NCBI RefSeq assembly: GCF_028737315.1
Contig: NZ_JAQZAO010000002.1
Span: forward strand, 310,001 to 374,000
Direction of reading: 5' to 3'
Length of the DNA stretch: 64,000 nucleotides
Source of the DNA: Actinomycetospora lemnae
Lineage (GTDB): Bacteria; Actinomycetota; Actinomycetes; Mycobacteriales; Pseudonocardiaceae
Numbering within the stretch: the stretch's first letter is position 1; every line of letters begins with the position of its first letter. Below, piece by piece: positions 36,722 to 41,715 of this stretch. Both the position numbers and the translations under genes were made by a program. Below the pieces are notes generated by a model. That model did not search any database, was not told where the DNA came from, and saw nothing but the letters and a program-made list of their open reading frames with translations.

Positions 36722-37132
36722 TCAGCCGCTCACGGTCGGACCCGCCCGGTCGAGGTGCACCCGCAGGAGCACCCGGCGCTCCCGGCGCATGGCCTCGTCG
36801 TACTCCTCCCAGTCGGGGTGCTCGCCCGCGACCTGCCGGTAGTACGCCCGCAGGCCCTCGAGGGCCTCGGGCTGCTCGACGATCTCGACGCTGCCCTCGA
36901 CCTGGATCCACCGTCCGAAGAAGCCGTCGGGCAGCACGCAGAGCCACGCCCGGGGCTCGCGGCGCAGGTTCTTCGTCTTCACCGCCGTCTCCCGCGTGCT
37001 GACGACCGCCGCGCCGTCGTCGTCGACGCCGACCGCCACCGGCGACATCTGCGGCGCCCCGTCGCCCCGCCGGGTGGCCAGTACCGCGTGGTGCTGCTCG
37101 CGGAGCACCTGCCGCGCCTCGTCAAGGTCCAT
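36722..37132 (-). CDS. PPOX-class (pyridoxamine oxidase-like) probable F420- or FMN-dependent oxidoreductase
   Basis: Encodes 136 residues of the split-barrel flavin/F420 fold (LREQHHAVLATRRGDGAPQMSPV, STRETAVKTKNLRREPRAWLC). The pattern matches the Rv1155/TIGR03618 group, which binds F420 in mycobacteria. The cofactor cannot be proven by eye. The ATG start at 37132 gives the family length. It lies between aspS and the HNH gene on the same strand, 75 nt before aspS. Confidence 0.8.
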   Translation of the reverse strand: MDLDEARQVLREQHHAVLATRRGDGAPQMSPVAVGVDDDGAAVVSTRETAVKTKNLRREPRAWLCVLPDGFFGRWIQVEGSVEIVEQPEALEGLRAYYRQVAGEHPDWEEYDEAMRRERRVLLRVHLDRAGPTVSG

Positions 37133-37160
37133 GACCAGAGGTTAGTGAGGCGGCGGCTGG

Positions 37161-37351
37161 TCAGAACGGCGGCGGATCCGGGTCCTCCTCGGGAGCCATC
37201 GCCGGAGGTGGGGGTGGCTGCGCAGGCGCCGACGGGGGCGGGCTGTCCCAGGCCGGTCCGTCGTCGGCGTACCCGCGTGGTTCGGTGCTCGACGGCGTGG
37301 TCGGAGGTCGCGGGGCGGGGAGGTCGTCGACCACGGGCCGGGGTCCGCGCT
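37161..37351 (-). pseudogene. Displaced C-terminal tail of the DUF222/HNH gene (apparent frameshift)
   Basis: Beyond the TAG stop at 37352 a second frame reads on as LERGPRPVVDDLPAPRPP, later DDGPAWDSPPPSAP, and ends DPDPPPF at a TGA (37161-37163). Codon use is strongly GC-third and Pro-rich, and such PPPF ends are what I remember from related 13E12-type proteins. One base gained or lost near 37350-37365 would join the frames. A sequencing error or a recent frameshift are both possible. Confidence 0.5.
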
Positions 37352-39208
37352 CTAGGTGTGACCGGTGGGGCTGGTCCAGCGGAACCACCCGGGCCGGGGT
37401 TGGGTGAGGGTCCATCCCCGGTCCTTGAGGTCGTGGTCGTGTCCGCACGCCGGGTCGAGGTTGGCGGGCAGTGTCCGTCCGTGGTCGGTGACGGCGTGCG
37501 TGTGGTCGATCTCGGCCGCGAGCGCGGAGGCCCCGCAGGGCGGGAACACGCACGATCGGTCGCGCATGGTGATCCAGCGCCGCAGCGCCGCGGACGGGAA
37601 GCGCGCGAGGGCCTCGTGCGCCCGTGCCCGTCGTCGTGCGGCGATCCGGGCCCAGGCCTCGACGTCGAGGGGGTCGTCCCACGGCCGCTCGGGCTCAGCG
37701 GCACGACGTTCGGCCTCCTGGGCAGCGAGATCCTCGTCGTGGGCCGCACGCCAACGGCTCAGCTGCTGCTGCAGGTCGATGAGGAAGGGCGCCCAGCCGT
37801 CGTGCTCGCGTGGTCGCAGCCGCGCGAGCCCCGCCTCGGAGACGTGCAGCTCGACCACCGGGCGCGGTGCCCCGGCGAGGGGTGGCTGCTGCGGGGTCGT
37901 CGTCGTGTGTGCCGGTCGGCGACCGGCGAGCAGTGCGGCGATGAGCACTCCGCTGTCGTCGGTGACCGCCACCCGCCACTCCGCGTCGGCGTGGGCGGCC
38001 GCGAGCTCGCGCGCCAGGCCCGCGGTGATCACGCCCAAGCCGGGCAACCGCGCCGGCCGCTCGTCGAGCTCGAGCAGCGTGTTCAGCCCCACCCGCAGCT
38101 CGAACCGGGACTGCCGGGTCGGTCGGCGCCCGCCCGTGGCGCCCAGCGCGTCGTCGGTGCCGACGGCCGGGTCGGCTGCGTGAGGAGGCGCGCTGCCGGG
38201 CGGGGTCGGGTCGCCGGTCGGGGTCGAGGTCGGGGTCGAGGTCGGGGTCGGGGCGTCGGTCGGAGTCGGGTCGGCCGGCGGTGTGGGGTCGTCGGGCGGG
38301 GCCTGGGCGGGATCGGGGACGCGGCGCGGGCGGGGGTCGTCGTCGTGGCCCATGGCGAGCACCGCGGCCACGATCGCGGCGTCGTCGGCGCCGGCGTTGT
38401 CGGGATGGAACAGCGCGAGCACGACGTCGGCGCGGATGGTGTCGATCAGCCCGGGACGTCCGGCCGCCTGCGACCGGGCGGCGAGGGCGTTGATCCGCCG
38501 CACCGATCGCACCCCGCCGGGCATCGGCAGGTCCAACGCCGAGAGGTTGACCGTGCCGGCGTCGGTGCACCGAGCCCGGACCCGACGCTGACGGCGAGCC
38601 TGCCGGTAGAGCTTCTCCGCCCACGCCGGGTCGAGCGCCTTGGCCAGCGCCTGGATCCGGTCGATCAAGCGCGACGGCGTCATCGCACCGGCCTGGTCGA
38701 TCAGCTCCGCGATCACCGCGGCGGCGTGCTCCACCGAGAGGGCCGCGGTCCAGCGCACCAGGATCGCCACCCGCTGCTCATCGACCTCCCCCGCCCGCCA
38801 TGCCGCGCCCAGGCGAGGATGGCGCTGGGCGGCGTCCGCGAGGTCGAGCAACCGCGCCACCGCCGTCCGGGACGCCGAGAGGACCGCCCGCAGCTCGTCA
38901 CCGGACTCGGCGACGTCCCGCTCGGCCCGCCCACCCGGCGCGTCGGGATCCGCCAGCGCGGCCTCCCGGGCGCACGCGTGGAAGCACGCCTGCTGGTGCG
39001 CGAGCTGGCGGCGCTGGGCGGCCACCAGGCGCACCGTCTCGGACGGCGACACCCGCCGCGGATCGAGCCGCTCCAGGACGGCGGCCAGCGCGGCGCCGGC
39101 GGGCGTCTCCTCGAGCTCCGCCGGCACCACCTGGTAGCCGTCGTCGAACCCGTGTTCGATGGTAGCGGCTGCCCCCGACACCGGTCTGGCGTCCGCCACA
39201 TCAGCCAT
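37352..39208 (-). CDS. DUF222/HNH nuclease (13E12-type)
   Basis: Encodes 618 residues. DUF222 spans roughly residues 25-420, and an HNH domain is at the C-terminus: ITMRDRSCVFPPCGASALAAEIDHTH, then HDHDLKDRGWTL, with the paired Cys and His of the HNH fold. A mid-protein linker carries Thr-Pro repeats near 38216-38260. Members of this family are abundant in actinobacteria, and several M. tuberculosis copies are LexA targets. The ATG at 39208 shares its A with the stop of the radical SAM gene, so both lie in one operon. The C-terminus looks truncated by a frameshift. Confidence 0.88.
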   Translation of the reverse strand: MADVADARPVSGAAATIEHGFDDGYQVVPAELEETPAGAALAAVLERLDPRRVSPSETVRLVAAQRRQLAHQQACFHACAREAALADPDAPGGRAERDVAESGDELRAVLSASRTAVARLLDLADAAQRHPRLGAAWRAGEVDEQRVAILVRWTAALSVEHAAAVIAELIDQAGAMTPSRLIDRIQALAKALDPAWAEKLYRQARRQRRVRARCTDAGTVNLSALDLPMPGGVRSVRRINALAARSQAAGRPGLIDTIRADVVLALFHPDNAGADDAAIVAAVLAMGHDDDPRPRRVPDPAQAPPDDPTPPADPTPTDAPTPTSTPTSTPTGDPTPPGSAPPHAADPAVGTDDALGATGGRRPTRQSRFELRVGLNTLLELDERPARLPGLGVITAGLARELAAAHADAEWRVAVTDDSGVLIAALLAGRRPAHTTTTPQQPPLAGAPRPVVELHVSEAGLARLRPREHDGWAPFLIDLQQQLSRWRAAHDEDLAAQEAERRAAEPERPWDDPLDVEAWARIAARRRARAHEALARFPSAALRRWITMRDRSCVFPPCGASALAAEIDHTHAVTDHGRTLPANLDPACGHDHDLKDRGWTLTQPRPGWFRWTSPTGHT

Positions 39209-40797
39209 CAGAGCAAGGAGAGCTGCTCGGGGGGCGCCGTGACGACCTCCTCCGGCACCGCGGGCGGCGGCATCGACCCGTCGGGCCAGCCGCCCTTGCC
39301 CTCGCGCCCGTCGATGCCCTCGCCGTACCCCTGCCGCCCACCCATCGCGTGCCCGCCGCCGGTGAGTCCGTGGCGCTCGAGCAGCGGCCGGACCCGGGCG
39401 GCGAGGTCCGTCCGGTAGGCGGCGTCGACGTAGGCGCCCCGGCGGTAGAGCGCGGCGTAGCGCTCGAGCAGCTCGGGGTGCTCGCGGGCGAGCCAGGCGT
39501 GGAACCACTCGCGCGTGCCCGGCCGCAGGTGCAGGGCGAGCACGCTGGCCCCGCTCGCGCCCGCGGCGGCGATCTCGCCGAGCAGCGCCTCGAGGTGCTC
39601 GTCGGTGTCGGTGAGCCCGGGCAGCACCGGGGCGACGAACACCCCGCACGGCAACCCGGCGTCGCGGATGCGGCGCACGAGGTCGAGGCGCGCCCGGGGC
39701 GTGGGCGTGCCCGGCTCGACGCGGCGGTGGAGCTCGGGGTCGAGCAGGGCGAGCGAGACGCCCACGCCGACCGGGACGTCGCGCGCCGCCGCGGTGAGCT
39801 CGGGCAGGTCGCGGGCCAGCAGCGTGCCCTTGGTGAGGATCGAGAACGGCGTCCCCGTGCCGCCGAGCGCCCGGATGATGCCCGGCATGAGCGCGTAGCG
39901 GCCCTCGGCCCGCTGGTAGGGGTCGGTGTTGGTGCCCATCGCGACGTGCTCGCGAGCCCAGCGCGGCGAGCGGAGCTCGCGGGCGAGCACCTCGGGCGCG
40001 TTGAGCTTCACGACGACCTGGCGGTCGAAGTCGTCGCCCGCGTCGAGGTCGAGGTAGGTGTGGGTGTTGCGGGCGAAGCAGTTGTGGCTGATGACGCCGT
40101 CGGCCACGAAGTCGCCGGTGCCGGTGGTGAGGTCGGCCAGCGGGCGCTCACCGCCGAGGTCCTCGACCGCCACCACCGCCCGCCCGCCGGGGGCATCATT
40201 CGGCGGCGGTGGCGCCACCGGCGGCGAGCCGGGACGGCGGAAGGCCTCGTCGGCGAGGGTCTCGGCGCCGACGAGCACGTCGCCGACCCGCAGGTGCGGC
40301 CGCTCCGTCCCCGCGCACCCCTCCGGCCGGACGTGCACCCAGCCCCGCGGCGTGAGGAACCGGTGGTCCGCGCTCGCCACGAGCGTCGTGCCGTCGACGA
40401 GGCGCACCCGCCAGGCGGGCTTCGTCGTCGTCCACGCGTCGTGGACCGGCGTCGGGACGAGGCTGCGCACGCCGCCACGCATCGCCGTGCCCACCACGAG
40501 GTCGCCGACCCGGACGTCGGCCAGCCGCACGCTCGTGCCGTCGACCATCAGGACGGGCGTGTCCGGCGCGAGGCAGTAGGTGCACGCGTGGCTGCACCCC
40601 CGGTACGGGTTCACCGTCCAGGAGAAGGGCATCGGCGACGCCCCGGGCACCCGGTTGAGCACCGAGCGCGCCCGCACCTCGTGGAAGGTGATGTCGGCGA
40701 ACTCCGGCGTCCGGACGCTGCGCACCAGCCCCTTGAGCGCGGGCATGCCCGGGAGCTCCTGGGGCCCGCCCGCGACCTTCTGCTCGTCCCACCGCAC
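39208..40797 (-). CDS. Rv2578c-family radical SAM protein interrupted by a mini-intein
   Basis: Encodes 529 residues before splicing, 364 after. The N-terminal VRWDEQKVAGG and LVRSVRTPEFADITFHEVRA match the Rv2578c family. The radical SAM motif GCSHACTYC is at residues 68-75, with the last Cys replaced in the gene by the intein's first Cys; after splicing it is restored. SplB-like stretches (AMGTNTDPYQRAEG, FSILTKGTLLARDLP) follow. Its substrate is unknown. GTG 40797 is chosen by homology; ATG 40746 has an AGGAG site. An SOS-type palindrome lies 8 nt upstream. Confidence 0.88.
   Translation of the reverse strand: MRWDEQKVAGGPQELPGMPALKGLVRSVRTPEFADITFHEVRARSVLNRVPGASPMPFSWTVNPYRGCSHACTYCLAPDTPVLMVDGTSVRLADVRVGDLVVGTAMRGGVRSLVPTPVHDAWTTTKPAWRVRLVDGTTLVASADHRFLTPRGWVHVRPEGCAGTERPHLRVGDVLVGAETLADEAFRRPGSPPVAPPPPNDAPGGRAVVAVEDLGGERPLADLTTGTGDFVADGVISHNCFARNTHTYLDLDAGDDFDRQVVVKLNAPEVLARELRSPRWAREHVAMGTNTDPYQRAEGRYALMPGIIRALGGTGTPFSILTKGTLLARDLPELTAAARDVPVGVGVSLALLDPELHRRVEPGTPTPRARLDLVRRIRDAGLPCGVFVAPVLPGLTDTDEHLEALLGEIAAAGASGASVLALHLRPGTREWFHAWLAREHPELLERYAALYRRGAYVDAAYRTDLAARVRPLLERHGLTGGGHAMGGRQGYGEGIDGREGKGGWPDGSMPPPAVPEEVVTAPPEQLSLL
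40081..40575 (-). other. Mini-intein in the radical SAM gene
   Basis: 165 residues, from CLAPDTPVLMVDG to GVISHN, inserted between Tyr74 and the Cys that completes CxxxCxxC. Block A (CLAPDTPVLM), block B (VASADHRFLT, with Ser-x-x-His), block F (LADLTTGTGDFVADG) and block G (VISHN then Cys) are all visible. About 60 residues of Pro/Gly/Arg-rich linker replace a homing endonuclease domain. The +1 nucleophile is the third iron-sulphur Cys itself. Confidence 0.93.
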
Positions 40798-40805
40798 CGA
40801 ACCAT

Positions 40806-40821
40806 TCGAACACGTGTTCGA
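40806..40821. promoter_or_regulatory. Perfect LexA/SOS box
   Basis: TCGAACACGTGTTCGA is a 16-bp perfect palindrome that exactly fits the mycobacterial-type SOS box TCGAAC-N4-GTTCGA. It lies 8 nt upstream of the radical SAM GTG start and 33 nt before the divergent ATG at 40855, so it could control both. The position close to the start codon suggests a leaderless or very short 5' leader on the minus side. Confidence 0.85.
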
Positions 40822-40854
40822 GGGTGCGGCAAGCCACCGACAGCGAGGACCATC

Positions 40855-41715
40855 ATGGGGGTGGACGACGCCCGACGCCTCTGGACCTTGTTCGAGCCGC
40901 TGCACGCGGTCACCTACTTCACCGTGGAGGCCCGCACCGCGGCCGACGCCGTGGGGCTGCGCGGGTTCTGGATGGCCTACGTCGCCCAGCGCTCGGCGCC
41001 GCTCGGCGCGGTCGGTCCGGAGGTCGCGTACGCCGCCTTCCACGGCTTCCACCGCCTGCGCCTCGAGCGGGCGCTGCCCGACGCCTGGGAGCTCGCCGAC
41101 CCGGAGCGCTGCCTGACCGCGCGCTCGATCGGTGCGGGCGCCGCGCTGCACCGGCTGCTCGGCGAGGAGACGGCGCACCGGCCGGAGATCGCCGAGGCCG
41201 CCGAGCTGGCCGGCGCGGCCGCGGACGCCGCCGACGTCGAGGGCCGGGTGCTCGGCGCCGCGAACCAGGCGCTCCCCCGCCCCGAGGAGCCCGTCCGCGC
41301 GCTGTGGCAGGCGATGACGACGCTGCGCGAGCACCGGGGCGACGGCCACGTGGCGGTGCTCGTCGCGTCCGGGCTCGGACCGGTCGCGGCGCACCGGCTC
41401 AAGGAGGCCGCCGGGGAGCTCAACGGCTCGACCACCCGGCAGGCGCGTCGCTTCGACGAGGACGACTGGGCCGCCGGCGCGGCGGAGCTCCGGGGGCGCG
41501 GCTGGCTGGACGACGCGGGCCGGCTCACCGACGCGGGACGCGCGGGCCACGACGAGATCGAGTCGGCCACCGACCGCCTGGCGGCCCGCCCCTGGGCGGC
41601 GCTGGGGCGGGAGGGCACCGACCGGCTCGCCGAGCTCCTCACGCCGCTCTCCGACGCCGTCGTCGCCGGCCACGCCTTCCCGCCCGGCAATCCGGTCGGC
41701 CTCGTCCGCTCCTGA
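40855..41715 (+). CDS. SCO6745-like hypothetical protein (helical)
   Basis: Encodes 286 residues, nearly all helical, with RRLWTLFEPLHAVTYFTVEARTAADAVGLRGFW at the start. Residues about 190-240 resemble a winged-helix (HRLKEAAGELNGSTTRQARR, then ELRGRGWLDDAGRLTDAG). I recall similar actinobacterial proteins named SCO6745 family; the function is unknown. It is divergent from the radical SAM gene across the SOS box, so DNA-damage control is possible. Confidence 0.7.
   Translation: MGVDDARRLWTLFEPLHAVTYFTVEARTAADAVGLRGFWMAYVAQRSAPLGAVGPEVAYAAFHGFHRLRLERALPDAWELADPERCLTARSIGAGAALHRLLGEETAHRPEIAEAAELAGAAADAADVEGRVLGAANQALPRPEEPVRALWQAMTTLREHRGDGHVAVLVASGLGPVAAHRLKEAAGELNGSTTRQARRFDEDDWAAGAAELRGRGWLDDAGRLTDAGRAGHDEIESATDRLAARPWAALGREGTDRLAELLTPLSDAVVAGHAFPPGNPVGLVRS

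Follow-up and report, generated by a model that had tools for sequence, protein, structure and literature searches.

We analyzed a locus in which two putative DNA-damage genes of Actinomycetospora lemnae lie side by side. The locus is part of a stretch of 64,000 nucleotides, termed the window (contig NZ_JAQZAO010000002.1, positions 310,001 to 374,000; 75% GC), of a genome of 6.06 Mb. It consists of a gene for a radical S-adenosylmethionine (SAM) enzyme, termed the rSAM gene, and, behind it on the same strand, a gene for a DUF222-like protein with an HNH nuclease motif, termed the HNH gene. A first-pass annotation of this sequence had combined the two into one shared SOS operon, a module whose repair enzyme and nuclease would be made together. 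Our analysis points instead to two separately promoted DNA-damage genes that adjoin because one was inserted behind the other, a reading to which we assign a probability of about 0.78. The operon as the principal explanation was rejected because the HNH gene has a second SOS box and a promoter of its own, because related genomes have empty sites at this place, and because an HNH gene downstream of the rSAM gene was not detected in the 80 named loci surveyed.

The perfect TCGAAC-N4-GTTCGA palindrome which the first-pass annotation reported 8 nt upstream of the GTG start of the rSAM gene (at 40797) is present. A second perfect box, 1.66 kb away and inside the 5' part of the HNH open reading frame (ORF) as drawn, had been missed. 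It is joined, with one base in common, to a sequence that fits the RecA-independent promoter consensus tTGTCRgtg-N8-TAnnnT (PMC5656591), apart from the first T and a weakly conserved position, which has G in place of the first lower-case t. The same register is repeated in relatives of the gene. At the level of sequence, the HNH gene has a damage-type promoter of its own, to which PafBC and LexA are predicted to bind. Separate promoters for the two genes, seen here in the sequence, are what the annotation itself had named as refuting its operon.

The fusion of promoter and box (with at most one mismatch) is seen in 18/18 genus loci of the subfamily to which this HNH gene belongs. Measured from the last T of TAnnnT, the box begins at a distance of 0 or 11 nt, giving two fixed registers, one of which has the start codon inside the box. 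In 17 of the 18 loci, the promoter is followed by an ATG or GTG at 6 or 7 nt; the window copy is the exception. In 16 more distant DUF222 genes, the promoter was found in 15 (in the stretch searched) and the box in none. Seven DUF222 genes of the source genome (L001-L005, L007, L014/L020) have TCGAACNNRTGAGCGA where the others have the SOS box, which corresponds to its left half only, with the start codon inside. A search of 397 genomes of the order found the fused pattern at 26 places, distributed over 20 genomes, and nowhere in the backward control; it is real but uncommon at that strictness. The start codon is inside the box at 17 of these places. Of the downstream genes, 20 were scanned: 13 have a DUF222 match, and one matches an error-prone-polymerase family. 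Moreover, the box lies over the start of a DUF222 gene in three named mycobacteria. Mycobacterial recA is likewise subject to dual control by LexA and PafBC; there the signals are described as two promoters, P1 and P2 (PMC5656591), whereas in the HNH subfamily they are fused, and the operator contains or adjoins the start codon. In the open-access literature searched, we found no description of the fused PafBC/LexA register or of tails resembling those of the single-stranded DNA-binding protein (SSB) on DUF222 proteins.

Genome-wide counts place the locus in a larger context. Exact TCGAAC-N4-GTTCGA boxes occur at 11 places in the genome and are not due to chance, because the control yields 0 and base composition predicts approximately 0.06. 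Two of them belong to the locus, and five precede DUF222/HNH genes, confirming that SOS boxes on such genes are real; 13E12 HNH genes of Mycobacterium tuberculosis are reported to be in the LexA regulon (PMC4181829). One of the 11 exact boxes lies 13 nt in front of a short HNH-like gene (L031:1501-2171, 214 aa; HNH and HNH_3 below cut-off). The lexA gene was found in the genome, with three one-mismatch boxes upstream of it. The PafBC-type pattern TGTCRGKG-N8-TANNNT has 42 genomic sites (control 0, approximately 1.8 expected from composition), of which 6 are left if the first T is required (control 0). Fifteen of the 42 precede DUF222/HNH genes. For the other 27, 13 downstream genes were scanned by Pfam, and 7 of these are replication- or repair-like: an exonuclease, DNA polymerase III alpha, UvrA, SMC, a PD-(D/E)XK nuclease, UvrB and DNA polymerase I. 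All 17 counted DUF222/HNH genes have at least one of the two signals upstream, a PafBC-type promoter in 15 and an exact SOS box in 5. Sites of the PafBC type that resemble those of the DUF222 genes also lie within 300 nt of contig ends (contigs C3, C9 and C14 of G000), which suggests that the assembly breaks at DUF222 repeats.

Comparison of neighborhoods indicates that the HNH gene is an insert. In A. lutea (L092) and in the genome G135 (L077), the rSAM stop codon is followed by a short spacer and the next gene, and the HNH gene is missing. The 136-aa ORF which follows the HNH gene in the window (36722-37132) stands directly after the rSAM gene in relatives, and the alignment with A. cinnamomea (L091) stops at the rSAM stop codon. 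A. cinnamomea and A. lutea have the best-matching named rSAM loci among the matches listed. A sister genome (G160, L171) does have an HNH gene behind the rSAM gene; there the gap between the two is longer, the rSAM stop codon is not overlapped by an ATG, and the reading frame of the HNH gene is broken before the HNH motif. Among 27 genus loci with HNH/DUF222 genes, this is the only one with an rSAM gene within the fetched flanks. We also surveyed the best 80 of a longer list of matches to the rSAM gene in named species, using DUF222/HNH queries taken from the source genome. DUF222/HNH genes next to Rv2578c homologues, for which the first-pass annotation had suggested looking in other genomes, were not detected downstream of the rSAM gene in any of these 80 loci, two of which have less than 0.6 kb of downstream sequence. 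In a second sample of 30 family loci, which includes the window's own, the window locus alone has one. It thus appears that the HNH gene and its promoter were inserted here in an ancestor that this species shares with a sister.

DUF222/HNH genes do occur upstream of the rSAM gene in 3 of the 80 named loci, all from Mycobacterium, each with its own box (0 or 1 mismatch). By our own estimate, based on approximately 17 genes in 6 Mb, about 3 of 80 stretches of 8.7 kb would contain such a gene by chance. In M. interjectum (L163:2183-3767) the DUF222 gene has its own SOS box and ends approximately 20 nt before the rSAM box on the same strand, an order opposite to that in the window; in another mycobacterium (L118), too, the rSAM gene is preceded on the same strand by a DUF222 gene that has an SOS box of its own.

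The HNH gene had been drawn from an ATG at 39208 to position 37161, overlapping the rSAM stop codon by 1 nt. Strand and position hold, and so does the overlap of the ORFs. ATG 39208 is probably not the native start, because the sister genome lacks an ATG at the rSAM stop codon and has a longer gap there, and because genes of the subfamily have their start in or beside the SOS box, 6-7 nt downstream of the promoter. The frame itself stops at 37352, and 37161 is the end of another frame, which holds the C-terminal tail of the family. The label DUF222/HNH stands by way of relatives only: the protein has no Pfam match to DUF222 at E 0.1, whereas it is 34-35% identical to proteins of the same genome that do match. 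It would therefore belong with DUF222 while lying outside the Pfam model itself. Its HNH motif scores 18.8 bits in Pfam, compared to a cut-off of 21.4, with DH, N and the final H present in an HxH variant. DUF222/HNH proteins of the 13E12 type resemble it in the 34-35% identity, the HNH-like motif and the damage-type promoters; their motif usually reads His-His, whereas it is His-Asp-His in the subfamily of the window gene. No match to the HNH protein was found in collections of phage, plasmid and defence sequences, and a phage, plasmid or defence origin was dropped for this reason. A structure model of the protein (predicted template modelling score, pTM, 0.32) was set aside.

Many DUF222/HNH proteins share a terminal feature. 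One SSB of the source genome (L261) ends in DDEPPF, and many DUF222/HNH proteins (L189, L235, L241, L255 and others) have a similar acidic-PPF tail, such as DDEPPPF. Acidic-PPF tails of the SSB type bind repair proteins. Among the 14 Pfam DUF222 genes of the genome, 4 encode the tail, 9 do not and 1 is open-ended. In the subfamily of the window gene, a tail of PPF or PTF, mostly after acidic residues, is present in 10/10 relatives readable to the end, that is, in 16 loci minus five that are frame-broken (L171, L173, L179, L182, L183) and one that is open-ended.

The rSAM gene proved to be what the first-pass annotation took it for, an intein-split radical SAM gene of the Rv2578c type. Its product passes the cut-offs of both NCBIfam models, scoring 526.7 bits for the Rv2578c family (NF038135, cut-off 430) and 784 bits for the intein-containing form (NF038136, cut-off 700). 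The CX3CX2C cluster motif is complete, with cysteines 68 and 72, plus 240 once the intein is removed, and an intein-type insert is found at the identical site in 30 of the 79 named loci for which an N-terminal match was obtained (L104 gave none and was omitted). In its cluster motif, in the site of the intein and in the position of the SOS box, the gene agrees with its relatives. It does not differ from the intein form of the family in any essential respect; the inserted neighbor alone is peculiar. In three family genomes (L065:604-16377; L064:579-17052; L066/L067) approximately 14-23 kb of DNA interrupts the rSAM gene at the place of the cluster cysteine and the intein. The junction in L065 is adjoined by a gene for a large serine recombinase (Pfam Recombinase and Resolvase). 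A Streptomyces phage is reported to integrate in a gene of the Rv2578c family (PMC12924846).

The SOS box of the rSAM gene is conserved. Among the 79 named loci, a box 17-30 nt before the start is exact in 40, has at most one mismatch in 67 and at most two in 75; the remaining four are from Arthrobacter or Micrococcaceae, with weaker sites further upstream. In the family sample, a box with at most one mismatch lies by the start in 29 of 30 loci, the window's included, and is absent in L050. Moreover, a TTGAC-like -35 element lies at a fixed distance upstream of the rSAM gene in 75 aligned loci, the box covering spacer and -10. These conservation patterns suggest that the box is an old feature of the family. 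The message is likely leaderless, with a predicted transcription start, because the start codon lies so close behind the promoter. SOS control of the rSAM gene is likely, because the box is found at a fixed place in 75/79 named loci and because a radical SAM gene of Streptomyces venezuelae, vnz_31145, possibly a member of the same family, is bound by LexA and induced 20-fold by mitomycin C (PMC9380542). In M. tuberculosis, the genes that respond to mitomycin in a RecA-dependent way include one for a DNA repair photolyase and five for putative HNH endonucleases (PMC8151990), possibly of the families considered here. In four genus-mates (L073-L076), two SOS boxes, one exact and one with one mismatch, lie 17 nt apart before the rSAM gene. 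A near fit to the PafBC-type element upstream of the rSAM box was taken as chance, since its positions are not conserved in the 75 aligned loci. Rv2578c itself is presumably a LexA target; in the open-access literature, no paper with both terms, Rv2578c and LexA, was found. Finally, the gene that the first-pass annotation placed on the other side of the box, facing away, is present and belongs to the SCO6745 family. The features of the locus are listed in Table 1.

Table 1. Features of the locus, with positions counted from the first nucleotide of the window.
Feature	Position	Strand	Basis
Divergent SCO6745-family helix-turn-helix gene	40855..41715	+	Profile match; faces away from rSAM across the box
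Putative sigma-70-type rSAM promoter (-35-like TTGCCG 40827-40832, -10-like TCGAAT 40804-40809)	40804..40832	-	Conserved -35 spacing
Perfect SOS (LexA) box of rSAM, TCGAACACGTGTTCGA	40806..40821	.	Exact TCGAAC-N4-GTTCGA match
Rv2578c-family rSAM gene (GTG start, 529 aa, mini-intein inside)	39208..40797	-	ORF and profile matches
Mini-intein (165 aa) interrupting the CX3CX2C cluster motif at its third cysteine	40081..40575	-	NF038136, 784 bits
Inserted stretch of ~2.06 kb with HNH gene and promoter	37146..39207	-	Not present in A. lutea and G135
HNH promoter of the PafBC (RecA-independent) type, TGTCGGGGG...TACCAT	39159..39180	-	Consensus fit; one base common to the SOS box
Perfect SOS box belonging to the HNH gene (second box)	39144..39159	.	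Exact match; lies within the HNH ORF as first drawn, in its 5' part
DUF222-like/HNH gene from first in-frame start after the box (GTG 39130)	37352..39130	-	ORF reading, relatives
HNH motif region	37424..37537	-	Pfam HNH 18.8 bits, residues 558-595 from ATG 39208; aligned with relatives
C-terminal-tail codons of the family, in a frame differing from the HNH ORF	37161..37351	-	Comparison with relatives

The description of the rSAM product as SplB-like is supported for the fold but not for the catalytic residue. Spore photoproduct lyase (SPL) is the top structural match for a model of an intein-less rSAM homologue (L125; pTM 0.73, with low confidence around the cluster loop), which supports an SPL-like (SplB-like) fold of the window enzyme as judged from this homologue; sequence searches of the PDB gave no match. 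The hydrogen-donor cysteine of SPL (C140 of the solved enzyme) has no conserved counterpart in the rSAM product, as judged from its spacing to the cluster motif. No conserved cysteine lies between the cluster motif and C220 in 24 aligned homologues, 22 of which have none at all in this stretch, the other two having one at 89 and one at 117, respectively.

Some observations do not sit easily with two separately promoted genes. The start codon that relatives have inside the box (place 39149-39151) is gone in the window copy, which weighs against a working gene still driven by its promoter, and the ORF that begins at ATG 39208 crosses the box without a stop, which makes coupling to the rSAM gene possible. 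Furthermore, the HNH paralogue in the same genome has a frameshift that separates its box from the remainder of the gene, and the other 6 of the 13 scanned genes behind PafBC-type sites are not of a replication or repair type or cannot be assigned clearly to a family; they include a carboxyltransferase and a glutamine synthetase. The loss of the start codon would favor coupled translation and thus a single LexA-controlled operon, in which a radical SAM repair enzyme and a nuclease are made together as a damage module; this is consistent with the common strand, the 1-nt ORF overlap, the box before the first gene and the preservation of the adjacency in the sister genome. We nevertheless regard such an operon as unlikely, since the HNH gene has its own promoter and box, the insert is missing in A. 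lutea and G135, and DUF222/HNH genes are not found downstream in the 80 named loci nor in 29 of the 30 family loci. Moreover, the sister genome, which keeps the adjacency, has a longer gap and lacks the overlapping ATG. Read-through from the rSAM gene into the HNH gene is possible; with such coupling, translation could begin at ATG 39208. That the HNH protein serves as the free-standing homing partner of the nuclease-less rSAM intein, as the proximity of a 165-aa mini-intein and the role of HNH nucleases as homing enzymes in other systems (PMC9416677) might suggest, is very improbable. None of the 30 named intein-bearing loci has a DUF222/HNH gene downstream, the three loci with one upstream are intein-less, and close relatives of the HNH gene lie away from rSAM genes in 26 of 27 genus loci. 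A homing partnership was rejected on this distribution.

The present state of the HNH gene is harder to judge. The window copy may be decaying, and it is a serious possibility, if short of even odds, that it has no current role and that promoter and box are relics. The lost start codon and a frame that stops short of the tail argue for decay, as do frame breaks in 5 of the 16 other subfamily copies, among them that of the sister. Against this, no stop interrupts the frame before or within the HNH motif, the box keeps both its arms intact, and errors in draft assemblies could mimic frame breaks. A further, tentative idea is that DUF222/HNH proteins are dedicated damage nucleases with a compact dual PafBC/LexA promoter whose operator lies at or across a leaderless start, many of them with SSB-like tails, and that the window copy was captured and its translation coupled behind the rSAM gene. 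It is similarly speculative that, for such nucleases, the box would also encode the first residues, Met-Phe-Asp/Glu, and that the tail would lead to repair proteins that bind SSB.

If, as we favor, two separately promoted genes were brought together by insertion, the rSAM gene would be an old LexA target with a sigma-70-type promoter whose spacer and -10 are covered by the SOS box. Cleavage of LexA would result in production of the rSAM precursor, from which the mini-intein would have to be excised, by predicted splicing, before the third cluster cysteine joins its motif. Since the catalytic cysteine of SPL is absent, the product, with its SPL-like fold, would probably perform radical chemistry on another, possibly nucleic-acid, substrate. 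The HNH gene would be a member of a multicopy DUF222/HNH family wired to DNA damage, and full expression in its subfamily would need both an activator (PafBC) and the loss of a repressor (LexA). It would have arrived with its promoter in an ancestor of the species and its sister; the copy in the window, having lost the start codon in the box and ending before the SSB-like tail, is probably translated weakly from GTG 39130 or by read-through from the rSAM gene, and is perhaps decaying.

These results offer two lessons for reading such loci: SOS genes that adjoin need not form an operon, and a predicted start codon can be placed so far upstream that the ORF extends across a promoter and an operator. 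The link of the rSAM family to DNA damage has been called speculative (PMC12924846); the LexA-type box kept across several actinobacterial orders strengthens it. For the DUF222/HNH family, repeated in this genome (17 genes counted), the damage-type promoter or box of each counted gene points to a testable role: its members would be expected to be induced by DNA damage via two pathways, and many of them are possibly recruited through an SSB-like tail.

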